Assembly (NCBI GenBank): GCA_015179125.1
Contig: WHVA01000004.1
Span: 1-64,000, forward strand
Length of the DNA stretch: 64,000 nt
Direction of reading: 5' to 3'
From: Gautieria morchelliformis
Taxonomy: Eukaryota > Basidiomycota > Agaricomycetes > Gomphales > Gomphaceae
The notes under the pieces were generated by a model. The model was given only the letters and a program-made list of their open reading frames with translations, was not told the DNA's origin and did not search any database. Made by a program: the position numbers and the translations under genes. The stretch's first letter is position 1. Each line of letters opens with the position of its first letter. Shown piece by piece: positions 3,236-56,767 of this stretch.

Positions 3236-3274
<39 letters not shown>

Positions 3275-19855: not shown

Positions 19856-20757
19856 TCATCGAGGAGCTTGGAATAGATCAAAATCAACCCACGTCACTCT
19901 AATCAGACAATCTAGGCGCCATCACCTTATGGCATGATCTAACATACCACATGCCTACTAAGCACATCAATGTCGCTTACCATTTCATCCATGAGAAAGT
20001 GGCCTCTCACGAGGCAACACTTACATATGTACCAACGGAGGAAAATGTAGCAGACATATTCACAAAGGGATTGGATTTACACCAACATAGGTATTTACTA
20101 GGGAAATTAGGGTTGAGAAGAAAGGACTTCTCGTTGAGAGGGAGTGTTAGTAATTGGGATGATGAGTCAGCCAAGGATGAGCCGGCAGGCACATAGCCAG
20201 ACGTTCGAGAGCATTCTTGACCCTGGGATGCTGGTGCACTGGCATGGCATCAGCACGGCAACAGCTTGAAGCGATTAGTAATATTGGACATCGTATTTAG
20301 TATGAAGGGAAGGAGATCTCGAGTAGATTGAATAATAAGATCACATTTTATATTTCCTTCATTCTACAGGTTATGGGCCCCAGCTGTAACTAAACTACTA
20401 CAGACCTAGCCTATCCTAACTGCATACAAGAGCACTCTATACTTCATCAATTCAATACTAATCAATAATGTCGAATAGCAACAACCTGTACAAGATTGAT
20501 CCTCTAAACAGGGATAACTATGCAGCATGGTGCTGGTGACTTGAGTGGACATGCAATGATTTGGATCTATGGGACGTGGCTATCGTCAGGGAGACGGAAC
20601 CAAGACTTGCAGATGCCGGCAACGTCACTGCAGCCGAGCAGCAGGAAATTGACGGTTGGAGAAAGAAGGGCAAGAAGGCTAGAAAGGAAATTTGCCTCAG
20701 GGTTGCCAATAAACAACTAGTCTACATTAATCAAACAATGTCTGTGTTCACAGTATG
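19856..20757 (+). mobile_element. Copia family 2: RNase H end, LTR, then Gag start
   Basis: In order: the end of copia RNase H (HINVAYHFIHEKV, ENVADIFTKGL), polypurine tract TTGAGAGGGAG, LTR 20,145-20,368 (224 bp, TGTTAG...TCTACA), primer-binding-like GGTTATGGGCCC, then Gag from 20,468 (NLYKIDPLNRDNYAAW; UBN2-type). One LTR is shared between the 3' end of one copy and the 5' end of the next, as recombination between tandem copies produces. It is cut at 20,757 by a gypsy-1 LTR. Fossil with a few breaks. An inverted copy is at 55.7-56.8 kb. Confidence 0.78.
20145..20368 (+). repeat. Copia family 2 LTR, left arm (224 bp)
   Basis: TGTTAGTAATTGGG start after a purine tract and TTCATTCTACA end before the primer-binding-like sequence. 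The inverted partner is 56,084-56,307, with the same length. Confidence 0.8.
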
Positions 20758-21705
20758 TGTCAGGGGACACCCTGTTTTCCAGTTCCAACAGCACCCTAAG
20801 GTCCAACCACTTCCAGTTCCAGTTCCATCTCCAACTCCGCTTTCAGAACTGATTCCGCTTCTGGGAGACCTTCCACCAGTTCTGTTCACTTTGCCAATTC
20901 AACTCCACTTTCCGACTTCCGCTCTCAGAACAGTGTCGGAAGTCAAGCAACCCACGTAGTATGTGGTATCAAGGGTCAATCAAGGGTACCTTGGGCCCTT
21001 CGCAGTGATGCGGAAGGTCGGACGGAACACTTACCACCTCCGACTTCCGAACTACATGTCCCACCTCCACCCCGTCTTCAATGTAGTGAATTCACTCCCA
21101 GCACCGGAGGATCTAATTCCACACCGGAGGGCTCACCTGCCACCTCCACCAGAAATCATAGATGGGGAAGAGCATTATGTGGTGGAACAGATCCTGGATA
21201 GCCAGTTCATGCGAGAATGACTCAAATTCCTCATCAAATGGGAAGGATATGGGTATGAGGAGAATTCGTGGGTCCCAGAGCAAGATATCTCCACTATGGA
21301 CAAACTCCGCAAGGTCTACAGGACACACCCTGGTGCCCCTTGCCGAATCCATTCGCTGGCCTTTCAATCCCTTGTGTCCCATGCTTCAAGGATGCAGCAT
21401 GCTAGGAGGACACCCTGTTTTCCAGTTCCATTCACCTTGCCAATTCCACTCCACTCTCCGACTTCCACTCTTGGAACAGTGTTGGGAGTCAAGCGACTCG
21501 CATAGTAGGTGGCATCAAGGGTCGATCAAGGGTCAGGGAGGTCAGGGGGATGCAGGGTTGATGGCGATTGTTGTCCCTGGCTGCAGACTAGCATAGTATA
21601 ATACAGGCTCGCTGACGTTGGGGGTCCTTGACTTTTCTCTTTGGATTTCCCCTTGTCAGTTGTGTGGTAGTGTGACCTCCACAGCCAGCTAGGGTTTCCC
21701 TTACA
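20758..21705 (+). mobile_element. Internally deleted gypsy-1 derivative, left arm
   Basis: Opens with TGTCAGGGGACACCC (gypsy-1 LTR in plus sense), passes into integrase C-terminus and chromodomain sequence ([37 protein letters not shown]) at about 21.0-21.4 kb, and ends in a second LTR part finishing CCCTTACA at 21,705. Most of gag and pol is absent. Many CpG sites of the full copy are TpG/CpA here, so it is older. Inverted copy at 54,738-55,694. Confidence 0.8.
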
Positions 21706-22083
21706 GTCTCCTCCTATCATGCACAGTTTCCTTAATGACAGTAGATAACTCTCACATAGTAAGTGCTTGTGCTTCAAGCACTATAATTGATATTCTCTCT
21801 CTCTCCCTCTGGGAGTGCCACTTGGAGTCTTCATGATTGAAAGAGAAGGGTTGGGGGTTAGAATGTTTGATATTTGGGTCTGGCCGAGTCAATATTATAA
21901 GGGTTCATGAATTGATGAGACGGTGCAGGAGCAGCCCTACGGTGACAGGCGCGAGAATACCTCTGACCATTGGATTTCCAGCCAGTCTGAACCCACCAAT
22001 ATGATCTGCAAATTATTGCCCTACATTGTATGGTGGCCAACCGTTTGCCACCCCTAATACTATGTTATGTAATTGGCTTAACA
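21706..22083. other. Unassigned TE-like remnant between gypsy-1 derivative and NLR 3' end
   Basis: No ORF of note. It contains a (CT)n run near 21,795-21,812 and ends ...TTGGCTTAACA at 22,083, where ankyrin sequence begins. The inverted partner starts TGTTAAGCCAATTAC at 54,360, an LTR-like TG start. It is probably the edge of an unclassified LTR element that truncates the NLR. Confidence 0.4.
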
Positions 22084-22505
22084 TGTCTGCACCCTACTCT
22101 ATGAGCAACTGGACAGTCATATCATGACCCTCTATTGCCGCAGCCTGCAGTGCACTCCCATACTCCCCTCCATGAGCAGTCACATCCACACCCTTTGCTA
22201 TGAGCAACTGGACAGTTGTATTATGACCCCCTGATGCCGTCGCCTGCAGTGCATGTTAAGAGTCATCACCACTGGGGATGGTGTCTAGATGTGATGTAGA
22301 TCCAAACTCCTAGGTGGGGTCAAATTGAGTTCAAGTGCAAGAATATGAGAAGTGAGGTTGCACAGGTTTTATGCGCCTTGGAATAATCAACAAGATAAAT
22401 TCAAGTGTTTTGGAGCACAGTAAGGTAACAAATAAGTGTGTTCGATTGACTTGACTGTTACTGTGTACATGGTAGCTATTTCACTGATGTGTAGAGTATG
22501 CTACT

Positions 22506-23196
22506 TGTTACGTATAGAGAATCCTGGAAGTTGGAACTAAAAGGACAGCAGCTTCAACTTATATGTTGCACCCTGAATGAACCATCATCCTAAGTATTTC
22601 AGATCAGAAGTCAGAAGTCATAAAGTGTCAAAGTAAGTTAAAGGTTGGAAACTAAGTCAGAAGGAGGAAGGTGGAAAGGCAGAAAGGCAGAAAGACAGAG
22701 GTCAGAAAGTGGAGGGGCAGAGGTCTTGCAATACTCACTGTACTGAGAACAGGAGATAGAATGAAGGGAGTCATATATCAAAGTCGATTATCTGATTGCA
22801 GGATAGAGAGCATACATGATGGGGTTTTATACAAAGAGCTGATGCAACATGTAATGTTGTACTACTAAGCATGTTCCAAAGAGAGCGGAAGCCAGATATG
22901 ATATATGGGGTAAGTAACTAATCAGGAACAAATAACTACAAGGGGGGTGCAGGGTAGTGTCAAGAACATAGGCAAAATAACAAGGGGACAGAAAGTTTAT
23001 ATGACATAATGGAACAATGGGACTCCAGAGGGGTTGGACATATTGTCTTGCTGTGCGGCAAGTTGAGTCCAAAGGGTCCGAGTAATAGAGTCAAATGGGG
23101 AAGAGATATAACAAGGGGCGAGACTATTGGAAGTATTGGAATGTCAGCAATGAAGCAGAACTGAGGATCGGAAGTCAGAATAGCATGGCCATAACA
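22506..23196 (-). repeat. Solo LTR of family D nested in insertion C, left arm
   Basis: TGTTACG...CATAACA ends flanked by CTACT (22,501-22,505 and 23,197-23,201). Homologous to the left-only copy at 25,075-25,754 but CpG-poor (CpG sites appear as TpG or CpA), so older. Inverted partner 53,240-53,938. Confidence 0.82.
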
Positions 23197-23346
23197 CTAC
23201 TACAGAAATGGTTGTACCGGTGGATGTGTGTATACGGCTCAGGTTACGGGGAATCGATGTGCCAGCTGCTGCAGTGAGTACATATCTTGTATATTGAATG
23301 GAAAGGGTTGTATATGGTTTGGATATCAGACAAGGGTATGTGTGTG

Positions 23347-23410
23347 TGGGGGGGGGGGGGAGGGGGGGGGAAGGAAGAAAGATAGGAAGAAAGATAGGAA
23401 GAAAGGTCTG
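23347..23410 (+). repeat. G-run and GGAAGAAAGATA simple repeat, left arm
   Basis: Two G-tracts separated by one A near 23,348-23,370, followed by tandem AGGAAGAAAGAT units. The right-arm partner near 53,040-53,090 differs in length, as expected for slippage. G-run chemistry could allow quadruplex formation. Confidence 0.7.
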
Positions 23411-24484
23411 TACACAATGGGCTAGCCATCATGTCATTCCTCAGATCAACTGGTCTCAGGCTCAGGTCTGTGTCTCAGATCAGGGACAAGTCCACAGATC
23501 GTTAGGTCAGATACTTGGCCACAGATTGATGAGATAATATGGAATGGGTGTTGTGAGTGTGTGTGGGCTTGGGCAGGCTCAGATGGATAGTTTGGGTGCA
23601 TATATGTGGTGTGAATAGGCATTGGGGGTGCATGTATGCAGTGTGGGATGAATAGAGTGGAGTATTGTGATGTTTTGGGTGAATGTGAGTGATTGCATAG
23701 TTCTGATATATTCATGACAGTGCACTTCCATACTCTCCTCCATGAGCAGTCACATCTGCACCCTTCTCTATGAGCAACTGGACAGTCGGATCATAACCCT
23801 CTACCACCACCTCCTCCAGCACACTCCCATACTCTCCTCTATGAGCAGTCACATCTGCACCCTTCTCATATCATCCTCACAATGCCATCTGCAGCACACT
23901 CCTATACTCTCCTCCATGAGTATTCATGGCCGCACCCTTCTCTATCTCTATGAGCAACTGGACAGTCCTTTCATGACCCCGTGATGTCGCCACCTGCAGT
24001 GCACTCCCATACTCTCCTCTATGAGCATTCATGTCCGCACCATTTTCTATGAGCAACTGGACCATTGTATCATCATCCTGTGATGCTGCCACCTGCAGTT
24101 CACTTCCACCATAGTATCCTCCCTGTGCATTCACATCTGCACCCTTCTCTATGAGCAGCCAAACAATTGTATCATCCCCCTGCGATGCCACCATCTGGAG
24201 CACACTTCCATTGTGTTCTCCCTGCACATTCACATCTGTGCCCTTTTCTATAAGCAACCAGACAGTCATATCATGACTGTGTGATGCTGCCACCTGCAGC
24301 GCACTCCCATACTCTCCTCCATGAGCATTCACGTCTGCACCATTTTCTATGAGCAACTGGACCATTGTATCATCACCTCGTGATGCTGCCGCCTGCAGTG
24401 CACTTCCATAGTATCCTCCCTGTGCATTCACATCTGCACCCTTCCCTATGAGCAAACGAACAATTGTATCATAACCCTGCAATG

Positions 24485-26195
24485 TGTCATGACCTGTCAG
24501 TTTCTCTTACCCCGCTGCCTCTACGTACCCCCTCATCACTCCCTAGCACCTTCACCAAAGTTCGCCTCACCCTCCGACCACTCCTCCTCTATGCCCACTC
24601 TATTCGCTGTTCGCCCCATTCTCCGAACCGCTATTCGCTGCTCGCACATTTCACCAGCAGGCGCGCCATCAAATACGATCGATACCATTTACCCGGCATG
24701 ATGGTTCATCACTAACCCCATCATCTTCTTAATCCAACCCCTTTGGGTATTCATATGGCCAAAGTGTGTTCGCATCCCTTTCGTAGGTCGTGTGGGATCA
24801 ACCCAGTAGACGAAGAGTCCGTGCAGGGTAGCATGTATGCGGGTTCCAAGACATGGTTTCGTACATAAGTGCCTTCGCCACCTTTACTCTCCGTCGTTTC
24901 ATGTTCACACTCTTCCCTCACTCTATTGTATGTTTATTCCATCTACTTAGTATCATGACTGCGCACCCCTATCCACCCCTGACTCACAACGGCCTCTTTC
25001 CTATTCGCTTATACCTTACGAGCATTCGATATAAGTAGTTTACATTTGCATGTATATTCCCCAGTTCAATTATCTGTTACGACCGTTCATTTCCGACTTC
25101 CGACCCTCAGTTCCGCCATACATTCCGCCCCTCCGATACTTCCGTCACACGTTCCGCCCCTCCGACATTTCCGACATTCCGCCCCTTGTACATTTCCCTT
25201 GTTCTTTCGACCCTATTACTCGGACCCACCGGACCCACCTCGCCATCCATCAAAACCATATATCCGGTCACCCTTGTAGTTCGTTGTCAGATATGTTTTC
25301 CCGACCCCTTGTTCTTTGCCATTGTTCTACCTTACCCTGAACCCCCCTTGTAGTCCCATTGTTCCCAATTAGTTAGTTCCCACACATTGTACTCGACTTC
25401 CGCTTCCTCTGGAATTTGTTTAGTACAACACCATTACTTGTTGCTCTGCGCTTTGTATAAAACCCCCTCATGTATGTCTGTTATTCTGCAATCAGATAAT
25501 CACCTTCGATACTTGATTTCCTTCGCTCCATCTCCTCTTCTTAGCACAGCGAGTCTAGCAAGATCTCAGTCTCTCCGTCTTCCGCCTTCCGCCTCAGTTC
25601 CAACTCAAGTTCCGACCAACCTCTAGTTCAGTACTTTCCGACTTCCGACTCAGTTCCGAAATACTTAGGACGATAGTTCATCGGGGGCGCAACCTATAAG
25701 TTGAAGCCGCCGTCCTTTCCAGTTCCGACTTAGTGGAAATCTCGATACGTAACATTATCATACGTCGTCCATCTTGTGCAAACTTGACCTCGCTGTGATT
25801 CTCGTCTTGAGCCTCCTCCTGGATATTTCTATCTTCGACCAGAAGAGGACTTAGGCATCACTGGTGAGTTCTCATACTCCATCTTCGTTACCTTAGCCTT
25901 CTAACTATTGTCTGTGCTGTCGGCGAAGGGCTCTGAAGGAGCACCTTCGCCGGCAAAGGGATTGTCGCTACTTAGACAGCCCTTCCATGGCACCTTGTAT
26001 GTCACATCATCAAGTGCCACGGGCTATTTCGCTACGACTGTAGATAGGGCGAGCTCCGTTCGGGCAACCCTCTTATCTTGTGAACATTTGTCGGTTCACC
26101 TATTCGCCGAACAGCATACTTATTCACACAAGTTATTTGGGCATTCACTGTGTCCACTAATACACAATATTAACGCCCAAAAACCAATCTTGACA
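24485..26195 (-). mobile_element. LTR-like insertion B in the NLR ankyrin region, left arm
   Basis: In gene sense it runs TGTCAAGATTGG ... CATGACA, flanked by CATTG duplications (CAATG on plus at 24,480-24,484 and 26,196-26,200). The right-arm copy is 1,031 bp. This copy is longer only because a family D solo LTR sits inside it at 25,075. No coding sequence. Interpreted as a solo LTR; the family is unknown. Confidence 0.78.
25075..25754 (+). repeat. Young solo LTR of family D, present in the left arm only
   Basis: TGTTACGACC...GATACGTAACA, 680 bp, with TTATC on both sides (25,070-25,074 and 25,755-25,759). The right arm has the uninterrupted empty site (GATAA at about 50,485). CpG-rich, unlike the older copies, with repeated TTCCGACTTCCG-like motifs. 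It was inserted after the inverted duplication formed. Confidence 0.9.
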
Positions 26196-29114
26196 CAATG
26201 CTGCCTTCTGCAGTGCAATTCCCTTGTTTTCTCCCTGCACATTCACATCTGCACCCTTCTCTATGAGCAACCGGATAGTCATATCATGACCCAGCGATGC
26301 CGCCATCTGCAGTGCACTTCCATAGATGCCTCTGTGGACATTCACATCTGTGCCCTTCTCTATGAGCAGCAGAACAATTGTATGATGACCCTCCAATGCT
26401 GCACTCTGCAGTGCACTTCCATACACTCCTCCATGAGCATTCACATCCGCGTCCTTCTCTAGGAGTAACTGGACAATGGTACCATGGCCCCGTAATGCTG
26501 CCACCCCCAGTGCCGTACCATCAAATCCTCCAGATCTATTCACATCAGATCCTTTCTGCAACAGATGTTGGCACACTCGTTCCAACCCAGTCTTAGCCGC
26601 AATGGAAAGAGTTGCCCCTATATTAAACTGATCATAAAGCCACATCCAGTGGACATAAACGGCACTTGTGGGCTCCAAGAGCATCATGATCAGTCCATGT
26701 AGATCATCCCAGTCTCCAGCCGGATCCCACCCAGCATGATCCAACCAGTTATGTGCAGCATAGTGAGATAGTGGATAGGACAGGGCTGTATTCCAGAGTA
26801 CTTTCTTTTTTTTTTTTTCTTACACCATTATCCTGGTCAAATTGCAGTAGGTATGCCAGACATGTCTTCGCAATGAATACATGTGCCATCTTTTCGTTAA
26901 AATAGTAATGTGAAATCGCAGTCGTGCTTGTGCGAAGGTGTTCGGAGATCAGATATTCTCGAACGGAAAAGTGGGCCAGTGTGATCTCTCCTGCTTCAGT
27001 GAGGAGTGCCCTGTTGTCATCATGGTAGTCAATACTGGCCCCATCACTGCTGCCCTCATAGTCATCATTGTCTCCATAGCTGTCATCACCATAGTTGTCC
27101 TCAGAATTGTCCCCCACAGAGTTGCAGTCCGCTCGAAATGTAATGGTGACAAGACTCAAACATATGGTCAGAATATCTCGTGGATCCCGAAGTCGTCGGC
27201 GTTAGTCAAATAGAGGTCCATCTTCTGCATCAGGGTCTGTAGCGATCACTTCCACGGCTTGATCCGTTGATAATGTGCCAAAAGAGAAAGCCAACCACTG
27301 CAGTAAGCGCAGAGCATCCCGCCTATCGTCTCCATCGATGGCCTCAAGAATCCGATCGTACGTCTCATATAGCGTCTTTGGGAGACCCGTGAGTGCCTTC
27401 TCGAGCGCCGCAGGAGTTCTGCATTTCCGTAGTGCATCTAGCTGACAGACAACCCATCGAAACCTTCCCGTTCTCTCAGCAGCTATCTCAAAATCATCAA
27501 ATGACTACTTACATTCCATGCGCGCCATTAATCAATGTAGTCTTCACCATCTCTTTCTCCTCTGCTGAGCACATCCTGAACCTTTTATCATGATCAAGTG
27601 TCCTGGAGACGTGAACTCGGATGTCACCGTCCACAAGACTCTCGTGCATGTATACCTCGTGTGAAATCAAGCCACCCAGTGTTTCTTCGATGTCCCGCTC
27701 TTTCCGACTCGTTGCCATCAAGTGCAATGTGTCAAACTTCCAGTCATTGATTTCTTCAATCACTTTCAGAAACCTGGATCATTCCGGGCATTCGTCAAGG
27801 GCATCAAACACGATATACACCGTCTGGTAGCTCTTGACGATGGACTTTAAAGCGTTCATTAGCGCCTCTTGACCCGGGTCTCGGTGCGCACCACCGTGCT
27901 TGTTCTGAGGGAATAAAGACTCCAGGATATGGAAAGTGTTCGTGCGTACAGACAATTGCTTGATCAGAGATCGAAGCACAGCAGTTGGAAGGGTGTCCTT
28001 GTTGTTAAAGTCAAAATAGAAAAACGCTATTGCAAGGGAGGGGTCAGAACGGCAGTGAAGTGAAAGTTCTTCAATGGCGGTCGAACTCGACGTGTTCATT
28101 TGTTAGATAGGGCGGATATCACGGCAAATGAGATACACATACCAAAGGATTGTCTTTCCTGCGCCAGCTGTAACCATCTATCAGCGAAAAGCAGATTAAT
28201 GCAGCTTATCTGACTCACGTATACCATGGAGCCAAAGGAACGAATGAGGGGTCACTCGCCATTCCTTGAAATGTTCTCCCCCCACAAACCATGAACCGGT
28301 CGCCTCCTGTCGGACGGCACGGGCAGTCCTATGCTTTGATTCGTGGTCAGGCGCCGCCAACCAACTATAGATCTTCTGACGATGTCCTTCTGCATAACAA
28401 AGCCGTCTGAATCAGTGACCCACCCGGGCGATATGCGATGTACGCTGTTTGGCCTGCCCCATAGCCCCACTTATCCCAGCGGTCGTTTCCTGCAAGGCCT
28501 GGACACCGCTTTTCATATCCTGGGTCAACTGGCTATTCTTGGCACCCTGTTCCAGCAAGGCTTCGACCCCACTATCTATTTTCAGCGTCAAGCATCTGCA
28601 GAGAAGATCAGGATGATATCAAAGATAGTAGAGGTAACATACGTCTGATCTAGGTCCATCGCCACGGTCAACAAGTCTTGGAGCTTGCCTAGCTTTTCGA
28701 GAGTCTTGTTGACCTCGCTCTCCTTTAGGGGCCAGATGAATGCCTGTATGCGGCCTTTGCGTCCAAGGTCTCTTTCCAGCTTCGAATTGAGACTATCCAG
28801 CTCGGCACGGCAACAAGGAATCACCTCATTCAAAACCAGCAAACGGGAGGCGGCTACTGTCTCATCATGTCCTACTAATCGACGAATAGTTTCGAGCACT
28901 TTTTGGAGTCCAAACAGCTGATCAATTGTCCTTTCCTTGTCTCTCGTTGCGTTCTTGATGCCATTCCCATAGCTGTAGCATGCACTGATAGTCGCCGCGG
29001 TGAGCTGGAGAACGGCAATGAACGGCAAGGATACTCGCTGGGGTGGTTAGCACGCTACCAACGGTTCTGATAAATTGTCGGCGACTTACCTGTTAATCCC
29101 AGGTCGTCAGCCAT

Positions 29115-31226
29115 AGTGCCGCGTTGGTTAGAGTAATAGAGAGCACAACGTTGACGCCTATGATCGCAGCGTCTATCGTGGTGCCATCATGCAGGTTTGG
29201 GGTCAATGCACAGGCGTGTCTACAGGGACCCACAGACAACTAATTATATACTGCAATCACTGGAGGTACCGGAAGGTTTCCCCGCTTGAAAAATCCTCAG
29301 GAAATCCTGAGAAGTGGTTCAATCTTCCCACTAGAATTTTATTCTGACACAAAATCCATTTGTAGCGTTATTTTTTTCCTATGGTTTTTGGATGCTGAAG
29401 CGTCATTGAAATAAAAGAAAATGCACATTTATGTCGCTCTAGAAAGGCTTTCTCCGCGACCACCATCTCCTCGTAGCGCTAATACCTCTTTTCGCATTCG
29501 CTACCCGTTCAAATCCACCTAAAAGAGCTCTCTCCACCATGAACCGACCGACTACAACCTAAAGCAAAGTTTGCTGGGAGGGTATGGAAGTCTATGTGGT
29601 GCATTCGCTATTCCTCTCTTCCCTCAATTTTTCGTCTTTCCGTCCCCACATCTCCACCGCGAGCACTCCGAGCCTGTAAATCCTTGCACCATGAAGCTCA
29701 TTGAATAGCCGGGCGGCAATGTTTTCCAGGTATAATGGCGGGACTGAGGATGTAATGGTGACCCTCAAGATGATCAAACAGCCCTGGGCTCACTTTAACT
29801 GCGCACTTGATAATCCCTCGAAGAACGTATCGATTCAGTTCTGCGCCGCTGTTGACATCGTTGCTTACTGTAACTTCGGACATCTCAAAAGGTATACTAC
29901 GTACTCGAAAATCTCTGTTTCATGCCAGGCTAATCGCTACTCAATATCACCCTATCTAGGAGGGCTGCTGTGTGCGACACATACACACTCCTCATTACTT
30001 TTCTGTGCCTCTTGCCATCTAGGGAGCGTCTGCACCTTCGAGTGGTGGCAAGCCGTCGTTCTTGTCTGTTTTCGGCACTGATGTTGCGATGGTCCTTCTA
30101 GACACTCCCTGGGACAGCCTTGCGAGTCAAAAACAAGCACTGGAAGAGAATGAACGCATTTATCGGGCCTAGAATACTATGTCCCGAAGGCTGCTTGCGG
30201 GCGTGAGGCTTTTTCTTTGGTGCGGCAGAAGCGATGTGGTCGAGCGTAGTCAGTATAGAGAGCGGGGCGGGTGGCGGTAAGACGGGAGGGGAGGTGCTGC
30301 CGGTGTGGGGGTGGGATGTACTAGCTCAGTCTTCCCCGTAACTGGGGCTGGCGAGGGAGGGAGATGGCGACAGTCCCGCTCGCGATTGTGTCCTGTAGGG
30401 AAGGAGGGGGCGCAGAGCGAGAGTCAGAATGGAAGGAGGTAGGAGAAACGCGGTTGCCACTGGCGGAGAAAGGGGCCAGCGGAGAGCTCGACGGAAATCT
30501 GAACTCAACAGGAAATGCGGCAGGGGTAGGGATTACATAAAACGGGACGGCAGGGTCCATGACGTGCGCTGTCACTGGTATTACTTTGGATAGTTTGGCG
30601 TACGAGGCTGACAAGTAGACCAGAACAGAGATGCATGGGAGGGAACAGTGCGGGTGACGGAAGTGGAAGACAAGGCGACAATATTACATAATGGGAGGCC
30701 GGCGCAAGTTGCATCCCAGGCACGCGCATGATCCAGTATGGAATCCGGGGTCCTGGACGAAATCAATGGGCTGGCTGGTGGTCCTGAGAAGCGATGGGTA
30801 AGCATCACGTGAGCGTGGGTGATTCCCGTCGCATGCATCGTGATGGCGCCCTGTGACGTCACTATCGATCGAATCACTATAATCCCCGATCCCTCACGCA
30901 CATGCTTTGGATTCGCTATTGCGATACCTCCTCCATTGCGAAACAGTCCTGATATCATCCCGAAATTGGGCCTCCAGACATAGAAAAGCCTTGACACCAA
31001 GGTGAAATCGGGCCCAGACTGCTGTTGAGCTCAAAGCTGGGCATAACTCGCGTTAGCCCTTGTATAGACTTGATTTCAGGACTGCAGATGGTCTTAAATA
31101 CCTATACTGCGTATGTATACAGTATATATCATCTAGCAAATTCGACGAACCATCGGGAGAGGCAGGAAGGATATAGATCGAAGAGAACTGATTACCAGGG
31201 AAGAGAGCAAGGAGAACAAGACATCT
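29115..31226. other. Intergenic region between left NLR and kinase, with HMG/Ser-Pro remnant
   Basis: It holds the upstream region of the NLR, an inverted HMG remnant piece (about 29.57-29.60 kb, plus), the main HMG/Ser-Pro remnant on minus (about 30.0-30.7 kb, listed separately), and about 0.5 kb of kinase 3' flank. A 29.70-29.96 kb ORF (MNSRAAMFSRYNGGTEDV...) is shared with the right arm but I do not recognise it. Confidence 0.45.
30085..30729 (-). pseudogene. HMG-box gene remnant with Ser/Pro-rich leader, left arm
   Basis: On minus, a Ser/Pro-rich stretch (SSSPLAPFSASGNRVSPTSF, SLPRQPQLRGRLS) at about 30.3-30.5 kb precedes a basic segment and the first half of an HMG box near 30.1-30.2 kb (AAPKKKPHARKQ-like, then IPRPxNAFILFR). 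HMG-box proteins of this type (MATA_HMG-like) bind DNA as transcription factors. A stop separates the leader from the HMG frame, and the second half of the box lies on the opposite strand near 29.58 kb, so an inversion has broken the gene. The spacer copy at 34.2-34.9 kb keeps the two halves together. Confidence 0.55.
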
Positions 31227-42366: not shown

Positions 42367-42400
42367 TGATGCTTTTATAGGAAAGAACTCCAGTCTCATG

Positions 42401-45900: not shown

Positions 45901-46364
45901 ACGGCTTGCCACCGCTCGAAGGTGCAGACGCTCCCTAGATGGCAAGAGGCACAGAAAAGTAATGAGGAGTGTGTATGTGTCGCAAACAGCATCCCTCATA
46001 GATAGGGTGATATTGAGTAGCGATTAGCCTGGCATGAAACAGAGATTTTCGAGTACGTAGTATACCTTTTGAGACGTCCGAAGTTACAGTAAGCAACGAT
46101 GTCAACGGCGGCGCAGAACTGAATCGATACGTTCTTCGAGGGATTATCAAGTGCGCAGTTAAAGTGAGCCCAGGGCTGTTTGATCATCTTGAGGGTCACC
46201 ATTACATCCTCAGTCCCGCCATTATACCTGGAAAACATTGCCGCCCGGCTATTCAATCAGCTCCATGGTGCAAGGATTTACGGGCTCGGAGTGCTCGCGG
46301 TGGAGATGTGGGGACGGAAAGACGAAAAATTGAGGGAAGAGAGGAATAGCGAACGCACCACATA
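45901..46364. other. Inverted middle part of the HMG locus and unrecognised minus ORF, right arm
   Basis: The 45,996-46,256 minus ORF (MNSRAAMFSRYNGGTEDVMV..., NPSKNVSIQFCAAVDIVAYC) is shared with the left arm (29,701-29,960) but I do not recognise it. The sequence lies in inverted order relative to the spacer HMG copy. Confidence 0.4.
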
Positions 46365-46671
46365 TTGGGATACGACAGTGTTGGTAAGCGTGGAACGCAG
46401 CAGGGCCGTGCCCGGCATCAACGTAGGGAGGATACTCGTAGCTTCGGTCATGCATGACCGAAGCTAGTATATAGTTCAGACGTACGAGCAGTCGCACCTC
46501 AGTGAAGCTATCGTTCACTGAGGTACGCATCGTCTCTCATAGTTACACACGCATCGCTAATCGTAATGTATAGCCCATCGTACTTAGGTAGCTATACATG
46601 TTACAGTGAAGCTATCGTTCACTGAGCCCATCGTACTTAGTCTACTGCGCATAACCCATTAACACCACATA
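46365..46671. mobile_element. 307-bp insertion present only in the right arm
   Basis: Flanked by CACCACATA on both sides (46,356-46,364 and 46,663-46,671); the left arm instead reads CACCACATAGACTTCCATACCC. Inside are a perfect 28-bp palindrome (46,439-46,466, centre TCATGCATGA), two copies of CAGTGAAGCTATCGTTCACTG (each a short hairpin) and two copies of CCCATCGTACTTAG. It looks like a MITE-like or composite insertion; the superfamily is unknown. Confidence 0.65.
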
Positions 46672-47140
46672 CCCTCCCAGCAAACTTTGCTTTAGGTTGT
46701 AGTTGGTCGGTTCATGGTGGAGAGAGCTCTTTAGGTGGATTTGAACGAGTTGCGAATGCGAACAGAGGTATTAGCGCTACGAGGAGATGGTGGTGGTGGA
46801 GAAATCTTTTCTAGAGCAACATAAATGCGCATTTTCTTTATTTCAATGACGCTTCAGCATCCAAAAACCATAGAAAAAAATAACGCTACAAAGGGATTTT
46901 GTGTTAGAATAATATTCTAATGGGAAGATTGAACCACTTCCCAGGATTTTCCTGAGGATTTTGCAAGTGGGGAAACTTTCCGGTACCTCCAGTGATTGCA
47001 GTATATAATTAGTTGTCTGTGGGTCCCTGTAGACACGCCTGTGCATTGACTGACCCAAACCTGCATGATGGCACCACGATAGACGCTGCGATAATAGGCG
47101 TCAACGTTGTGCTCTCTATTACTCTAACCAACGCGGCATT
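46672..47140. other. Upstream region of the right NLR
   Basis: It contains the inverted HMG tail at about 46.67-46.70 kb and about 0.4 kb of AT-rich sequence matching 29.12-29.57 kb inverted. Pyrimidine-rich TTCTTTATTTC lies near 46,835. No gene is seen. Confidence 0.45.
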
Positions 47141-50048
47141 ATGGCTGACAACCTGGGATTGACAGGTAAGTCGCCGACAATTTATCAGAACCGTTGGTAG
47201 CGTGCTAACCACCCCAGCGAGTATCATTGCCGTTCTCCAGCTCACCGCGGCGACTATCAGTGCATGCTACAGCTATGGGAATGGCGTCAAGAACGCAACG
47301 AGAGACAAGGAAAGGACAATTGATCAGCTGTTTGGACTCCAAAAAGTGCTCGAAACTATTCGTCGATTAGTAGGACATGATGAGACAGTAGCCGCCTCCC
47401 GTTTGCCGGTTTTGAATGAGGTGATTCCTCGTTGCCGTGCCGAGCTGGATAGTCTCAATTCGAAGCTGGAAAGAGACCTTGGACGCAAAGGCCGCATACA
47501 GGCATTCATCTGGCCCCTAAAGGAGAGCGAGGTCAACAAGACTCTCGAAAAGCTAGGCAAGCTCCAAGACTTGTTGACCGCGGCGATGGACCTAGATCAG
47601 ACGTATGTTACCTCTACTATCTTTGATATCATCCTGATCTTCTCTGCAGATGCTTGACGCTGAAAATAGATAGTGGGGTCGAAGCCTTGCTGGAACAGGG
47701 TGCCAAGAATAGCCAGTTGACCCAGGATATGAAAAGCGGTGTCCAGGCCTTGCAGGAAACGACTGCTGGGATAAGTGGGGCTATGGAGCAGGCCAAACAG
47801 CGTACATCGCATATCGCCCGGGTGGGTCACTGATTCAGACGGCTTTGTTATGCAGAAGGACATCGTCAGAAGATCTATAGTTGGTTGGCGGCGCCTGACC
47901 ACGAATCAAAGCATAGGACTGCCCGTGCCGTCCGACAGGAGGCGACCGGTTCATAGTTTGTGGGGGGAGAACATTTCACGGAATGGCGAGTGACCCCTCA
48001 TTCGTTCCTTTGGCTCCATGGTATACGTGAGTCAGATAAGCTGCATTAATCTGCTTTTCGCTGATAGATGGTTACAGCTGGCGCAGGAAAGACAATCCTT
48101 TGGTATGTGTATCTCATTTGCCGTGATATCCGCCCTATCTAACAAATGAACACGTCGAGTTCGACCGCCATTGAAGAACTTTCACTTCACTGCCGTTCTG
48201 ACCCCTCCCTAGCAATAGCGTTTTTCTATTTTGACTTTAACAACAAGGACACCCTTCCAAATGCTGTGCTTCGATCTCTGATCAAGCAATTGTCTGTATG
48301 CACGAACACTTTCCATATCCTGGAGTCTTTATTCCCTCAGAACGAGCACAGTGGTGCGCACCGAGACCAGGGTCAAGAGGCGCTAATGAACGCTTTAAAG
48401 TCCATCGTCAAGAGCTACCAGACGGTGTATATCGTGTTTGATGCCCTTGACGAATTCCCGGAACGATCCAGGTTTCTGGAAGTGATTGAAGAAATCAATG
48501 ACTGGAAGTTTGACAAATTGCACTTGATGGCAACGAGTCGGAAAGAGCGGGACATCGAAGAAACACTGGGTGGCTTGATTTCACACGAGGTATGCATGCA
48601 CAAGAGTCTTGTGGACGGTGACATCCGTGTTCACGTCTCCAGGACACTTGATCATGATAAAAGGTTCAGGATGTGCTCAGCAGAGGAGAAAGAGATGGTG
48701 AAGACTACGTTGATTAATGGCGCGCATGGAATGTAAGTAGTCATTTGATGATTTTGAGATAGCTGCTGAGAGAACGGGAAGGTTTCGATGGGTTGTCTGT
48801 CAGCTAGATGCACTACGGAAATGCAGAACTCCTGCGGCGCTCAAGAAGGCACTCACGGGTCTCCCAAAGACGCTATATGAGACATACGATCGGATTCTTG
48901 AGGCCATCGATGGAGACGATAGGCGGGATGCTCTGCGCTTACTGCAGTGGTTGGCTTTCTCTTTTGGCACATTATCAACGGATCAAGCCGTGGAAGTGAT
49001 CGCTACAGACCCTGATGCAGAAGATGGACCTCTATTTGACTAACGCCGACGACTTCGGGATCCACGAGATATTCTGACCATATGTTTGAGTCTTGTCACC
49101 ATTACATTTCGAGCGAACGGCAACTCTGTGGGGGACAATTCTGAGGACAACTATGGTGATGACAGCTATGGAGACAATGACGACTATGAGGGCAGCAGTG
49201 ATGGGGCCAGTATTGACTACCATGATGACAACAGGGCACTCCTCACTGAAGCAGGAGAGATCACACTGGCCCACTTTTCCGTTCGAGAATATCTGATCTC
49301 CGAACACCTTCGCACAAGCACGACTGCGATTTCACATTACTATTTTAACGAAAAGATGGCACATGTATTCATTGCGAAGACATGTCTGGCATACCTACTG
49401 CAATTTGACCAGGATAATGGTGTAAGAAAAAAAAAAAAGAAAGTACTCTGGAATACAGCCCTGTCCTATCCACTATCTCACTATGCTGCACATAACTGGT
49501 TGGATCATGCTGGGTGGGATCCGGCTGGAGACTGGGATGATCTACATGGACTGATCATGATGCTCTTGGAGCCCACAAGTGCTGTTTATGTCAACTGGAT
49601 GTGGCTTTATGATCAGTTTAATATAGGGGCAACTCTTTCCATTGCGGCTAAGACTGGGTTGGAATGAGTGTGCCAACATCTGTTGCAGAAAGGATCTGAT
49701 GTGAATAGATCTGGAGGATTTGATGGTACGGCACTGGGGGTGGCAGCATTACGGGGCCATGGTACCATTGTCCAGTTACTCCTAGAGAAGGGCGCGGATG
49801 TGAATGCTCATGGAGGAGTGTATGGAAGTGCACTGCAGAGTGCAGCACTGGAGGGTCATCATACAATTGTTCTGCTGCTCATAGAGAAGGGCGCGGATGT
49901 GAATGCCCACAGAGGCATCTATGGAAGTGCACTGCAGATGGTGGCATCGCTGGGTCATGATATGACTATCCGGTTGCTCATAGAGAAGGGTGCAGGTGTG
50001 AATGTGCAGGGAGAAAACACGGGAATTGCACTGCAGAAGGCAGCATTG

Positions 50049-51079
50049 TGTCAAGATTGGTTTTTGGGCGTTAATATTGTGTATTAGTGAACACAGTGAA
50101 TGCCCAAATAACTTGTGCAAATAAGTATGCTGTTCGGCGAATAGGTGAACCGACAAATGTTCACAAGATAAGAGGGTTGCCCGAACGGAGCTCGCCCTAT
50201 CTATAGTCGTAGCGAAATAGCCCGTGGCACTTGATGATGTGACGTACAAGGTGCCACGGAAGGGCTGTCTAAGTAGCGACAATCCCTTTGCCGGCGAAGG
50301 TGCTCCTTCAGAGCCCTTCGCCGACAGCACAGAAAATAGTTAGAAGGCTAAGGTAACGAAGATGGAGTATGAGAACTCGCCAGTGATGCCTAAGTCCTCT
50401 TCTGGTCGAAGATAGAAATATCCAGGAGGAGGCTCAAGACGAGAATCACAGCGAGGTCAAGTTTGCACAAGATGGACGACGTATGATAATTGAACTGGGG
50501 AATATACATGCGAATGTAAACTACTTATATTGAATGCTCGTAAGGTATCAGCGAATAGGAAAGAGGCCATTGTGAGTCAGGGGTGGATAGGGGTGCGCAG
50601 TCATGATACTAAGTAGATGGAATAAACATACAATAGAGTGAGGGAAGAGTGCAAACATGAAACGACGGAGAGTAAAGGTGGTGAAGGCACTTATGTACGA
50701 AACCATGTCTTGGAACCCGCATACATGCTACCCTGCACGGACTCTTCGTCTACTGGGTTGATCCCACACGACCTATGAAAGAGATGTCCCGCGAACACAC
50801 TTTGGCCATATGAATACCCAAAGGGGTTGGATTAAGAAGATGATGGGGCTAGTGATGAACCATCACGCCGGGTAAATGGTATCGATCGTATTTGATGGCG
50901 CGCCTGCTGGCGAAATGTGCGAGCAGCGAATAGCGGTTCGGAGAATGGGGCGAACAGCGAGTAGAGTGGGCGTAGAGGAGGAGTGGTCAGAGGGCGAGGC
51001 GAACTTTGGTGAAGGTGCTAGGGAGTCATGAGGGGGTACGTAGAGGCAGCGGGGTAAGAGAAACTGACAGGTCATGACA
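50049..51079 (+). mobile_element. LTR-like insertion B in the NLR, right arm
   Basis: 1,031 bp with TGTCAAGATTGG...GTCATGACA ends and a CATTG duplication (50,044-50,048 and 51,080-51,084). Without the nested family D LTR, it shows the empty site of the left-only insertion at about 50,485. Solo LTR of an unknown family. Confidence 0.8.
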
Positions 51080-51084
51080 CATTG

Positions 51085-52575
51085 CAGGGTTATGATACAA
51101 TTGTTCGTTTGCTCATAGGGAAGGGTGCAGATGTGAATACAGGGAGGATACTATGGAAGTGCACTGCAGGCGGCAGCATCACGGGGTGATGATACAATGG
51201 TCCAGTTGCTCATAGAAAATGGTGTGGACGTGAATGCTCATGGAGGAGAGTATGGGAGTGCGCTGCAGGTGGCAGCATCACACAGTCATGATATGACTGT
51301 CTGGTTGCTTATAGAAAAGGGCACAGATGTGAATGTGCAGGGAGAACACAATGGAAGTGTGCTCCAGATGGTGGCATCGCAGGGGGATGATACAATTGTT
51401 TGGCTGCTCATAGAGAAGGGTGCAGATGTGAATGCACAGGGAGGATACTATGGTGGAAGTGCACTGCAGGTGGCAGCATCACAGGATGATGATACAATGG
51501 TCCAGTTGCTCATAGAAAATGGTGCGGACATGAATGCTCATAGAGGAGAGTATGGGAGTGCACTGCAGGTGGCAGCATCACAGGGTCATGATACGACTGT
51601 CCAGTTGCTCATAGAGAAGGGTGCAGATGTGAATGTGCAGGGAGGACACAATAGAAGTGCACTGCAGATGGCGGTATCACAGGGTAATGATACAATTGTT
51701 TGGCTGCTCATAGAGAAGGGCGCGGACGTGAATGCACAGGGAGGACGCTATGGAAGTGCACTGCAGACGGCAGCATCACGGGGTGATGATACAATGGTCC
51801 AGTTGCTCATAGAAAATGGTGCGGACGTGAATGCTCATGGAGGAGAGTATGGGAGTGCGCTGCAGGTGGCAGCATCACAGGGTCATGAAATGACTGTCCA
51901 GTTGCTCATAGAGAAGGGCGCAGATGTGAATGTGCAGGAAGGACATGATGGAAGTGCACTGCAGATAATGGCATTGTGGGGTGATGATACAATTGTTCAG
52001 TGGCTCATAGAGAAGGGAGCGGATGTGAATGCACAGGGAGGACACTATGGAAGTGTGCTGCAGACGGCGGCATCACAGGGTGATGATACAATGGTCCAGT
52101 TGCTCATAGATAATGGCGCGGATGTGAATGCTCATGGAGGTGAGCATGGGAGTGCACTGCAGGTGGCGGCATCACAGGGTCATGATATGACTGTCCAGTT
52201 GCTCATAGAGAAGGGTGCAGATGTTAATGTGCAGGGAGGACACAATGGAAGTGCACTGCAGATGGCGGTATTGCAGGGTGATGATACAATTGTTCATCTG
52301 CTCATAGAGAAGGGTGCAGATGTGAATGCGCAGGGAGGACAATATGAAGTGCACTGCAGGTGGCGGCATCACAGGGTGATGATACAATTGTTCGGCTGCT
52401 CATAGAGAAGGGTGCAGATGTGAATGCTCATGGAGGAGAGTATGGGAGTGCACTGCAGGTGGCGACATCACGGGGTCATGAAAGGACTGTCCAGTTGCTC
52501 ATAGAGATAGAGAAGGGTGCAGCCATGAATACTCATGGAGGAGAGTATAGGAGTGTGCTGCAGATGGCATTGTGA
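51085..52575 (+). repeat. Ankyrin repeat array with 297-bp higher-order period
   Basis: About 14 tandem 33-aa (99-bp) ankyrin units. Three unit types recur in order: one ending VQLLIEKGADVNVQGGHN, one with DDTIVWLLIEKGADVNAQGG, one with DDTMVQLLIENGADVNAHGG. Types repeat every three units. Units are nearly identical at the DNA level, so the array is recent or homogenised. One unit has a 1-bp deletion; the array end has an extra Ile-Glu (LLIEIEKGAAMN). Confidence 0.88.
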
Positions 52576-52732
52576 GGATGATATGAGAAGGGTGCAGATG
52601 TGACTGCTCATGGAGGAGAGTATGGGAGTGTGCTGGAGGAGGTGGTGGTAGAGGGTTATCATCCAACTGTCCAGTTGCTCATAGAGAAGGGTGCAGATGT
52701 GACTGCTCATGGAGGAGAGTATGGAAGTGCAC

Positions 52733-54190
52733 TGTCATGAATATATCAGAACTATGCAATCACTCACATTCACCCAAAACATCACAATACTCCACTCTAT
52801 TCATCCCACACTGCATACATGCACCTCCAATGCCTATTCACACTGCATATATGCACCCAAACTATCCATCTGAGCCTTCCCAAGCCCACACACACTCACA
52901 ACACCCATTCCATATTATCTCATCAATCTGTGGCCAAGTATCTGACCTAACGATATGTGGACTTGTCCCTGATCTGAGACACAGACCTGAGCCTGAGACC
53001 AGTTGATCTGAGGAATGACATGATGGCTAGCCCATTGTGTACAGACCTTTCTTCCTATCTTTCTTCCTTCCCCCCCCTCCCCCCCCCCACACACACATAC
53101 CCTTGTCTGATATCCAAACCATATACAACCCTTTCCATTCAATATACAAGATATGTACTCACTGCAGCAGCTGGCACATCGATTCCCCGTAACCTGAGCC
53201 GTATACACACATCCACCGGTACAACCATTTCTGTAGTAGTGTTATGGCCATGCTATTCTGACTTCCGATCCTCAGTTCTGCTTCATTGCTGACATTCCAA
53301 TACTTCCAATAGTCTCGCCCCTTGTTATATCTCTTCCCCATTCGACTCTATTACTCGGACCCTTTGGACTCAACTTGCCGCACAGCAAGACAATATGTCC
53401 AACCCCTCTGGAGTCCCATTATTCCATTATGTCATATAAACTTTCTGTCCCCTTGTTATTTTGCCTATGTTCTTGACACTACCCTGCACCCCCCTTGTAG
53501 TTATTTGTTCCTGATAAGTTACTTACCCCATATATCATATATGGCTTCCGCTCTCTTTGGAACATGCTTAGTAGTACAACATTACATGTTGCATCAGCTC
53601 TTTGTATAAAACCCCATCATGTATGCTCTCTATCCTGCAATCAGATAATCGACTTTGATATATGACTCCCTTCATTCTATCTCCTGTTCTCAGTACAGTG
53701 AGTATTGCAAGACCTCTGCCCCTCCACTTTCTGACCTCTGTCTTTCTGTCTTTCTGTCTTTCTGCCTTTCCACCTTCCTCCTTCTGACTTAGTTTCCAAC
53801 CTTTAACTTACTTTGACACTTTATGACTTCTGACTTCTGATCTGAAATACTTAGGATGATAGTTCATTTGGGGTGCAACATATAAGTTGAAGCTGCTGTC
53901 CTTTTAGTTCCAACTTCCAGGATTCTCTATATGTAACAAGTAGCATACTCTACACATCAGTGAAATAGCTACCATGTACATAGTAACAGTCAAGTCAATC
54001 GAACACACTTATTTGTTACCGTACTGTGCTCCAAAACACTTGAATTTATCTTGTTGATTATTCCAAGGCGCATAAAACCTGTGCAACCTCACTTCTCATA
54101 TTCTTGCACTTGAACTCAATTTGACCCCACCTAGGAGTTTGGATCTACATCACATCTAGACACCATCCCCAGTGGTGATGACTCTTAACA
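52733..54190 (+). mobile_element. LTR-like insertion C in the NLR, right arm
   Basis: TGTCATGAATAT...GACTCTTAACA, 1,458 bp, flanked by TGCAC on both sides (52,728-52,732 and 54,191-54,195). It contains the nested family D solo LTR 53,240-53,938. No ORF of interest. Partner of 22,254-23,719. Confidence 0.78.
53240..53938 (+). repeat. Solo LTR of family D nested in insertion C, right arm
   Basis: TGTTATGGCC...TATATGTAACA with AGTAG on both sides (53,235-53,239 and 53,939-53,943). The left partner keeps a CpG (TACGTAACA sense) where this copy has TpG. Long CTTTCTGT-type runs are near 53,750. Confidence 0.82.
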
Positions 54191-54359
54191 TGCACTGCAG
54201 GCGACGGCATCAGGGGGTCATAATACAACTGTCCAGTTGCTCATAGCAAAGGGTGTGGATGTGACTGCTCATGGAGGGGAGTATGGGGGTGCACTGCAGG
54301 CTGCGGCAATAGAGGGTCATGATATGACTGTCCAGTTGCTCATAGAGTAGGTGCAGATG

Positions 54360-54737
54360 TGTTAAGCCAATTACATAACATAGTATTAGGGGTGGCAAAC
54401 GGTTGGCCACCGTACAATGTAGGGCAATAATTTGCAGATCATATTGGTGGGTTCAGACTGGCTGGAAATCCAATGGTCAGAGGTATTCTCGCACCTGTCA
54501 CCGTAGGGCTGCTCCTGCACCGTCTCATCAATTCATGCACCCTTATAATATTGACTCGGCCAGACCCAAATATCAAACATTCTAACCCCCAACCCTTCTC
54601 TTTCAATCATGAAGACTCCAAGTGGCACTCCCAGAGAGAGAGAGAGAGGATATCAATTCTAGTGCTTGAAGCACAAGCACTTACTATGTGAGAGTTATCT
54701 ACTGTCATTAAGGAAACTGTGCATGATAGGAGGAGAC
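54360..54737. other. TE-like remnant truncating the NLR 3' end, right arm
   Basis: It starts TGTTAAGCCAATTAC exactly where ankyrin similarity ends. A (GA)n run is near 54,632-54,650. The gypsy-1 derivative follows at 54,738. Family not recognised. Confidence 0.4.
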
Positions 54738-55694
54738 TGTAAGGGAAACCCTAGCTGGCTGTGGAGGTCACACTACCACACAACTGACAAGGGGAAATCC
54801 AAAGAGAAAAGTCAAGGACCCCAATGTCAGCGAGCCTGTATTATACTATGCTAGTCCGCAGCCAGGGACAACACTCGCCATAAACCCTGCATCCCCCTGA
54901 CCTCCCTGACCCTTGATCGACCCTTGATGCCACCTACTATGCGAGTCGCTTGACTCCCAACACTGTTCCAAGAGCGGAAGTCAGAGAGTGGAGTGGAATT
55001 GGCAAGGTGAATGGAACTGGAAAACAGGGTGTCCCCTGACATCACCCCCCTCCTAGCATGCTGCATCCTTGAAGCATGGGACACAAGGGATTGAAAGGCC
55101 AGCGAATGGATTTGGAAAGGGGCACCAGGGTGTGTCCTGTAGACCTTGCGGAGTTTGTCCATAGTGGAGATATCTTGCTCTGGGACCCACGAATTCTCCC
55201 CATACCCATATCCTTCCCATTTCATGAGGAATTGGAGTCATTCTCGCATGAACTGGCTATCCAGGATCTGTTCCACCACATAATGCTCTTCCCCATCTAT
55301 GATTTCTAGTGGAGGTGGCAGGTGAGCCCTCCTGTGTGGAATTAGATCCTCCGGTGCTGGGAGTGACTTCACTACGTTGAAGACGGGGTGGAGGTGGGAC
55401 ATGTAGTTCGGAAGTCGGAGGTGGTAAGTGTTCTGTCCGACCTTCCGCATCACTGCGAAGGGCCCAAGGTACCCTTGATTGACCCTTGATACCACATACT
55501 ACGTGGGTTGCTTGACTTCTGACACTGTTCTGAGAGCGGAAGTCGGAAAGTGGAGTTGAATTGGTAAAGTGAACAGAACTGGTGGAAGTTCTCCCAGAAG
55601 CGGAATGAGTTCTGAAAGTGGAGTTGGCGATGGAACTGGAACTGGTTGGACCTTAGGGTGCTGTTGGAACTGGAAAACAGGGTGTCCCCTGACA
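54738..55694 (-). mobile_element. Internally deleted gypsy-1 derivative, right arm
   Basis: Mirror of 20,758-21,705: LTR part, integrase/chromodomain tail, LTR part. Ends TGTAAGGGAAACCC and CCCCTGACA on plus. The flanking 5-mers (GAGAC, CATAC) differ, as they do in the left arm, so this derivative arose by recombination or deletion before the inverted duplication. Confidence 0.8.
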
Positions 55695-56767
55695 CATACT
55701 GTGAACACAGACATTGTTTGATTAATGTAGACTAGTTGTTTATTGGCAACTCTGAGGCAAATTTCCTTTCTAGCCTTCTTGCCCTTCTTTCTCCAACCGT
55801 CAATTTCCTGCTGCTCGGCTGCAGTGATGTTGCCGGCATCTGCAAGTCTTGGTTCCGTCTCCCTGCCGATAGCCACGTCCCATAGATCCAAATCATTGCA
55901 TGTCCACTCAAGTCACCAGCACCATGCTGCATAGTTATCCCTGTTTAGAGGATCAATCTTGTACAGGTTGTTGCTATTCGACATTATTGATCAGTATTGA
56001 ATTGATGAAGTATAGAGTGCTCTTGTATGCAGTTAGGATATGCTAGGTCTGTAGTAGTTTAGTTACAGCTGGGGCCCATAACCTGTAGAATGAAGGAAAT
56101 ATAAAATGTGATCTTATTATTCAATCTATTCAAGATCTCCTTCCCTTCATACTAAATACGATGTCCAATATTACTAATCACTTCAAGCTGTTGCCGTGCT
56201 GATGCCATGCCAGTGCACCAGCATCCCAGGGTCAAGAATGCTCTCGAATGTCTGGCTATGTTCCTGCCGGCTCGTCCTTGGCTGACTCATCATCCCAATT
56301 ACTAACACTCCCTCTCAACGAGAAGTCCTTTCTTCTCAACCCTAATTTCCCTAGTAAATACCTATGTTGGTGTAAATCCAATCCCTTTGTGAATATGTCT
56401 GCTACATTTTCCTTCGTTGGTACATATGTAAGTGTTGCCTCGTGAGAGGCCACTTTCTCATGGATGAAATGGTAAGCGACATTGATGTGCTTAGTAGGCA
56501 TGTGGTATGTTGTATCATGCCATAAGTTGATGGCGCCTAGATTGTCTGATTAGAGTGACGTGGGTTGATTTTGATCTATTCCAAGCTCCTCGATGAAGCG
56601 CCTTAACCAAATCAGTTGTTTAGTGCCCTCAGTAAGTGCCATGTATTTGGCTTCCATAGTAGATAATGTGATCGTTTGCTGCTTCTTTGAGCTCCATGTG
56701 ATAGCTCCTATTCCTAGTATAGCCACGTAGCCCCTAGGAGGTCGTTCGGAAACTATAAGAAGTATCA
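55695..56767 (-). mobile_element. Copia family 2: Gag start, LTR, RNase H, right arm
   Basis: Mirror of 19,856-20,757, but it extends further into RNase H (GAITWSSKKQQTITLST, MEAKYMALTEGTKQLIWLRR). LTR 56,084-56,307. The copia sequence ends near 56,765 against AT-rich DNA. Fossil with a few breaks. Confidence 0.8.
56084..56307 (-). repeat. Copia family 2 LTR, right arm (224 bp)
   Basis: TGTAGAATGAAGG...TTACTAACA on plus; same length as the left partner 20,145-20,368. Confidence 0.8.

Follow-up and report, generated by a model that had tools for sequence, protein, structure and literature searches.

What produced the two mirror-image copies of a kinase-NLR neighbourhood near the start of a contig of the fungus Gautieria morchelliformis, in what state are they now, and has gene conversion kept them alike? 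These questions arise from an earlier note on the first 64 kb of contig WHVA01000004.1 (C448; 652,507 bases, in an assembly of 122 Mb and 1,113 contigs), which described a large inverted duplication there; that whole stretch of 64,000 nucleotides is called the window below. On balance, we favour the view that the structure is a single-locus inverted segmental duplication of the fold-back type, now ageing, in an NLR-rich fungus.

The two arms and the genes they carry

The arms, their genes and the segments that are private to one arm or differ in length are as follows (LTR, long terminal repeat; TSD, target-site duplication).

19,856-32,545, genes on the minus strand: arm A of the inverted duplication, with kinase gene, NLR remnant and repeat relics (self-BLAST and alignment)
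43,415-56,596, genes on the plus strand: arm B of the inverted duplication, gene set as in arm A (self-BLAST and alignment)
31,227-32,185, minus strand: kinase gene of arm A, four-exon model, whose real start may lie further upstream (gene model)
43,775-44,733, plus strand: kinase gene of arm B, identical four-exon model (gene model; Pfam PF00069/PF07714 on exon)
23,718-29,019, minus strand: NLR remnant of arm A, with N-terminal region, NACHT-type NTPase and ankyrin repeats, carrying a shared stop, a private stop and a frameshift (comparison with paralogues)
47,217-52,402, plus strand: NLR remnant of arm B, domains as in arm A, carrying the shared stop and a private stop (Pfam pieces, paralogue comparison)
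51,080-52,734, plus strand: ankyrin-coding array of ~99-bp units in arm B, with its arm A counterpart at 23,718-24,484 (self-BLAST, Pfam, alignment)
25,074-25,758, no strand given: solo-LTR-like insertion private to arm A, ~680 bp, 5-bp TSD GATAA, where arm B has the empty site (self-BLAST, alignment)
46,365-46,667, no strand given: segment private to arm B, ~300 bp (self-BLAST, alignment)

Self-BLAST of the window recovered arm A (19,856-32,545) and arm B (56,596-43,415) as inverted copies with the same ends that the earlier note had given. The match consists of four collinear blocks of 92-98% identity, namely 43,415-46,364 / 32,545-29,593 (96.9%), 46,668-50,490 / 29,586-25,754 (97.8%), 50,485-51,862 / 25,074-23,718 (91.6%, the ankyrin array) and 51,972-56,596 / 24,484-19,856 (96.2%), and chance is excluded as the source of alignments of this length. 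A global alignment that sets aside gaps, the private arm B segment and the ankyrin-array difference gave 210 differences in 11,928 aligned bases (1.76%), made up of 143 transitions, 72 of them in CpG context, and 67 transversions. The arms had been described as near-perfect copies, which overstates their likeness in view of these differences and of the arm-private insertions. Such insertions had also been reported, and they are present: ~680 bp in arm A, and in arm B the segment 46,365-46,667, a 2-kb element at the inner edge (see below) and an ankyrin array that is ~890 bp, or about nine 99-bp units, longer than that of arm A. Rfam and tRNA scans of the window returned no match.

From the centre outwards, each arm holds the kinase gene, the NLR remnant and ~3.4 kb of mostly dispersed-repeat relics, so that an NLR-kinase neighbourhood has indeed been duplicated, as proposed, with a kinase and a dead NLR in each arm. 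The one four-exon kinase model stays open in both arms. Pfam matched the arm B kinase exon to PF00069 and PF07714, and the kinase models show VAVK, HGD, DFG and APE motifs. For the NLR, the Pfam domain search covered the arm B pieces and found PF24883 (NPHP3_N, E = 4.9e-19) and PF00023 (Ank, E = 1.5e-70). The NLR lesions were read against paralogues from C604, C244 and C708. One stop codon is common to both arms, while a second stop and a frameshift are private to arm A and another stop is private to arm B, and with these lesions a receptor-coding open frame is kept in neither arm.

The shared stop is absent from all seven paralogue frames that span its position (L015, L016, L020, L022, L026, L027 and L031; the count leaves out L017, L018, L025 and L028-L030, which have no long frame across it). 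This absence places the duplication later than that lesion, so that the NLR gene was already broken when it was duplicated. The private lesions and insertions of the arms are later than the duplication. Another shared stop, ahead of the QMN motif, also precedes QMN in several paralogue loci and may belong to an intron. We set aside the automatic NLR gene model, because it spliced around the stops. The dN/dS ratio of two NLR pieces was 0.76 on 18 changes, too few to weigh.

We searched the genome with the arm sequence outside 49,246-52,999, and all copy numbers from genome searches are lower bounds (best 40 of 185 candidates for the arm query, best 40 of 5,808 for the second arm query, best 150 of 585 for NPHP3_N). 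Among the best 40 of 185 candidates, the two arms are each other's closest relatives. The next NLR relatives among the matches listed lie on C244 (90%) and then at three places on C604 (88-91%), and the next kinase relative is on C194 (87%).

The spacer, the outer flanks and the question of a misjoin

Between the arms lie a spacer with nested mobile elements and, at its boundary, a pair of short inverted repeats; the outer end of arm A abuts a retroelement.

32,699-41,243, no strand given: spacer, not duplicated in inverted form (self-BLAST, flank comparison)
35,374-40,910, no strand given: ~1 kb multi-copy element, terminal inverted repeats, 9-bp TSD TGTCCGGCT, interrupted by a Ty1/copia insertion (genome search, TSD)
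35,843-40,350, minus strand: Ty1/copia element, two 175-bp LTRs 100% identical, 5-bp TSD AATAA (self-BLAST, TSD, Pfam)
34,210-34,883, plus strand: third partial copy of the kinase 3' flank, ~85-86%, with a small inverted tail (self-BLAST, genome search)
32,546-32,698, no strand given: A-side member of the inner imperfect inverted repeats, candidate seed for fold-back (local alignment)
41,244-41,392, no strand given: inner imperfect inverted repeat, B side (local alignment)
41,401-43,408, no strand given: multi-copy element of 2 kb bordering arm B on its inner side, 8-bp TSD TAAATATG, with none in arm A (genome search, TSD)
13,648-19,855, minus strand: Ty3/gypsy-type element abutting the outer end of arm A; type assigned by eye from open reading frames (ORFs), RVT_1 by Pfam (self-BLAST, TSD check, Pfam)

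The spacer measures 10.9 kb as present and 8.5 kb between the inner repeats, and 5.5 kb of it is the nested pair of mobile elements, in which the Ty1/copia insertion is later than the ~1 kb element that it splits. Six other copies of the ~1 kb element were compared, and a 9-bp TSD was found in five (three exact, two with one mismatch) and none in the sixth. The 2-kb element is 92-96% identical to six other copies aligned; for two of the other copies the corresponding right end was reached, and L039 has an 8-bp TSD while none is visible for L041. The partial copy of the kinase 3' flank in the spacer is an older one. One spacer segment was matched once more among the genome matches listed (C460, 91%).

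These elements bear on whether the arms could be alleles, that is, two dikaryon haplotypes that the assembler joined head to head. Divergence of ~1.8% with private insertions is a possible look of alleles, and the genome matches listed hold no further near-identical copy of the queried arm parts. The assembly also contains near-duplicate contig stretches (C15 (L027), C1023 (L026) and C882 (L030) at 99.4-99.85%; C141 (L021) and C226 (L023) at 94.9% over 4.1 kb), and arm A is bordered on the outside by a gypsy-type element that lacks a TSD. Alleles, however, would keep matching beyond the arms, and the outer flanks 1-19,855 and 56,597-94,000 have repeats alone in common. Moreover, matching TSDs flank the copia element, its host element and also the 2-kb element, which means that no join lies inside 35,365-40,919 or 41,393-43,416, and the remaining spacer has few or no other matches among those listed (best 40 of 239 and best 40 of 132 candidates). 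The RPB2-type domain was found at four places with no near-identical second locus, the exception being a 93% match to a fragment of 220 bp; at those genes, then, the assembly is not doubled. We therefore reject a simple allelic misjoin on the grounds of the TSD-matched spacer elements and the outer flanks that share repeats alone. The same TSDs and flanks make a haplotype misjoin less likely in general, and we consider it very unlikely that the arms are alleles; as far as the assembled letters go, the inverted duplication is probably genuine.

As separate observations on the assembly, the near-duplicates C15/C1023/C882 and C141/C226 may be redundant contigs, alleles or recent copies, and L063 (C371:11,194-11,565), a fragment with 93% identity to a 220-bp part of the RPB2-type gene on C198, carries four TAG stops.

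At the outer ends the two arms differ. Past the end of arm B, a copia relic (named by eye) continues, and the relic is also unbroken at four other places read (C210, C250, C648 and C449). In arm A it is cut at the LTR of the gypsy-type element, the LTRs of which are 92.6% alike and the flanks of which (CCGCC and TCATC) form no TSD. The LTR divergence and the flanks without a TSD point to an outer flank of arm A that was exchanged, or misjoined in assembly.

Beyond arm B, the stretch 56,740-58,525 is AT-rich and has no other match among the genome matches listed. Its ORF at 57,959-58,513 had no Pfam match and by eye resembles an ORF in L010 (L010:2,541-3,269); that locus also holds a minisatellite-like repeat (L010:5,817-6,515) that reads as repeated short peptide motifs in several frames. 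A solo LTR with TSD GGGCC at 59,845-60,326 shares 96.7% identity with the LTR that borders arm A on the outside, and it adjoins a multi-copy element. The telomere motif, sought as two tandem TTAGGG units on either strand, was absent from the first 94 kb of the contig.

Uneven divergence and the near-identical kinase tract

The earlier note had suggested a recent duplication or ongoing gene conversion. The former is not supported, given the 1.76% of differences, the private insertions and the private stops. For the latter, the differences between the arms are spread unevenly. The kinase tract, at 43,417-44,700 in arm B, holds 3 differences in 1,284 bases (0.23%) in the arm alignment (5 in 1,267 in a slightly longer three-way alignment), compared with 207 in 10,644 elsewhere in the arms. 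The segment just outside the tract differs at 49 of 1,642 bases (2.98%) and the three outer segments at 1.71, 1.93 and 1.68%, so that four of the five segments stand at 1.7-3.0% and high identity is not kept along the whole arm. The longest identical run, 696 bases, starts at the inner edge (P = 8e-4). When all 1,284-base windows were scanned with all differences counted, the kinase tract was reached by 0 of 10,000 permutations; with neighbouring differences collapsed, P was 2e-4. Relative to outgroups, the ratio of A-B to shared differences was 5:122 for the kinase tract, compared with 47:174 for the NLR (P = 4e-6).

Selection on the kinase alone is unlikely as the cause of this tract, because the tract is ~10% away from its paralogue on C194 (125 and 124 of 1,267 bases differ for the two arms) and because one of the three A-B differences lies in a modelled intron and two in the last modelled exon. 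Gene conversion, acting locally and not along the whole arm, is the probable cause of the near-identity of the 1.3-kb kinase tract; one local conversion tract is the simplest reading, and others are possible. Of the conversion proposed in the earlier note, one local tract of ~1.3 kb is thus likely, while the arm-wide form does not fit the outer segments at 1.68-1.93%.

An arm-wide form would be expected if an old inverted kinase-NLR pair had later been made alike over 13 kb by repeated arm-to-arm conversion, as in the palindromes of sex chromosomes; the age of such a pair would follow from the divergence of the inner repeats and from the third copy, at 86%. The sharp step from ~100% identity to a poorly matching inner extension would fit this history, as would the one clearly alike tract with some unevenness outside it and the older partial kinase-flank copy inside the spacer. 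The three outer segments nevertheless share one level of divergence (1.68-1.93%), as from a single event, the stop of the dead NLR and the repeat relics are common to both arms, and no match to the inner sequence came up at any of four paralogous kinase loci examined (L019, L021, L023 and L024). We regard an old pair of this kind as unlikely. Palindromes with arm-to-arm gene conversion are known from sex chromosomes, as cited in PMC5490193, where 11 palindromic gene blocks are also described in Folsomia candida. The present locus resembles them in its large gene-bearing inverted arms and in one near-identical tract that suggests conversion. It is unlike them in that its arms are 98.2% alike, no homogenised stretch of the tract's size is seen in the outer segments, and both arms carry a pseudogene.

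Probable fold-back copying and the NLR genes of the genome

The evidence for a seed of the duplication comes from the inner boundary. Here a diverged inner extension of the arms had been reported; it is present, but it amounts to two short inverted blocks of ~30-60 bp with a poorly matching middle, located at the spacer/arm boundary and, on the B side, separated from arm B by the 2-kb element at 41,401-43,408. BLAST aligned the blocks as 32,579-32,614 / 41,393-41,361 (91.7%) and 32,669-32,698 / 41,273-41,244 (93.3%), and the local alignment scored 52 against a maximum of 26 in 2,000 shuffles. The inner-repeat sequence was unmatched in 62 other loci compared. As an alternative, we considered that the inner extension is a promoter common to the kinase family, but it was not found at the four paralogous kinase loci named above.

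Fold-back is the most likely mechanism. A broken DNA end would have folded back on the short imperfect inverted repeats, then ~3 kb apart (the present spacer minus the nested elements), and would have been copied, giving a mirror copy of a unit that held the kinase gene, the already disabled NLR gene and the repeat relics. Arm B would be the original and arm A the copy, as the copia relic continues past the outer end of arm B, and arm A would have been cut by the gypsy element, which would bring the different flank. Later, the arms would have diverged with many CpG transitions and acquired private mobile elements, the number of ankyrin units would have risen or fallen, and gene conversion would probably have homogenised one kinase tract of 1.3 kb. 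The main effect of the structure is probably that there are two copies of an open kinase gene, with no function of the structure itself.

Comparable events are described for the human germline and for yeast. In the fold-back model from the human germline, a non-duplicated spacer has short inverted sequences at its boundary, and fold-back can also yield duplications joined to translocated sequence (PMC3907307). In yeast, fold-back within single-stranded DNA is reported for inverted repeats that lie far apart and have diverged (PMC10164571), and further literature on fold-back inverted duplications includes PMC10622511 and PMC7467729. The inverted copies, the non-duplicated spacer and the short inverted boundary sequences, which here are imperfect, are shared with these cases. 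The different sequence beyond the distal arm, here a gypsy-type element without a TSD and a foreign flank, may be a further parallel and suggests the translocated-sequence feature at that junction, although a misjoin or later exchange would look alike. Unlike the known cases, the arms are just 13 kb long, old, decayed and full of later mobile elements.

The same region might instead have received two separate insertions or template-switch copies in opposite orientation, with the short inner repeats being incidental. The region is repeat-rich and contains the further rearranged fragment 34,210-34,883 with its inverted tail. Among the NPHP3_N matches listed, 13 neighbouring same-contig pairs lie within 40 kb, and by eye the two members are oppositely oriented in 6 pairs and share one orientation in 7, a near-even split that means that orientation as such is not special. 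Separate insertions, however, would leave the matched short inverted repeats of the inner boundary to be explained in some other way, and we regard them as unlikely.

A number of points weigh against the fold-back history that we favour. The structure is read from the assembled sequence of one strain. The gypsy-type element without a TSD at the edge of arm A could be a misjoin or a later exchange, so that the outer end given for the duplication is provisional. The inner repeats may be no seed but genuine arm sequence that extends inwards and was not reached by conversion. A dicentric intermediate and a terminal loss are historical events that are not visible in sequence. For the conversion step, the tract boundary was picked after viewing the data, a choice for which the scan test allows and the Fisher test does not, and a difference in mutation rate is a less likely cause of the alike tract. 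The differences outside the kinase tract are themselves uneven (variance/mean 2.13, P = 3e-4, when all are counted; 1.49, P = 0.018, when neighbours are collapsed), and several tracts or processes may therefore have been at work.

The genome is NLR-rich, with at least 154 NPHP3_N matches (from the best 150 of 585 candidates); several NPHP3_N pairs on different contigs have equal scores. A second inverted NLR pair, with NB-ARC matches, is located on C670 at 586,020-589,000 and 603,220-606,200 (L064, L065; also L073/L074). Its members show 100% identity along 2,981 bp and again in a 100-bp sample ~3 kb further out; a sample 2 kb inwards gave no match. The pair stops short of the contig end, and a fold-back of that end was rejected as its source, since the end fails to match its mirror and no palindrome lies at the centre.

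Diversity of NLR genes in fungi is the subject of PMC4986451, and PMC12258605 reports that 13 of 225 two-NLR clusters in Sordariales are head-to-head. The present locus is like such clusters and head-to-head pairs in having divergent NLRs less than 40 kb apart in an NLR-rich fungus, but differs from diverged functional pairs in that its two NLRs are near-identical pseudogenes and are separated by kinase genes. Among the paper titles listed on inverted duplications or palindromes, or on inverted segmental duplications with NACHT genes, none named a fungal inverted NLR duplication.

A more speculative proposal, to which we give little credence, is that fold-back inverted duplication is a recurrent route of NLR copying in this genome. 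The C670 pair, with arms of ~6 kb or more if continuous, identical where matched, and a spacer of ~10-14 kb, would then be a young stage, and the C448 locus an old stage with dying NLRs and a divergent central kinase pair kept open and homogenised by conversion.

Taken together, the locus is probably an inverted segmental duplication of an already known kind, and its interest lies in its readable history and in a second, younger-looking case in the same genome. If real, it would be a still legible fossil of how a fungal immune-receptor locus was duplicated in inverted form on a large scale. The probable seed repeats and the spacer could then be located in the sequence, together with the order of the later insertions and the traces of decay. 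Together with the identical C670 pair, it would make the growth of NLR families by fold-back copying, beside direct tandem duplication, testable.

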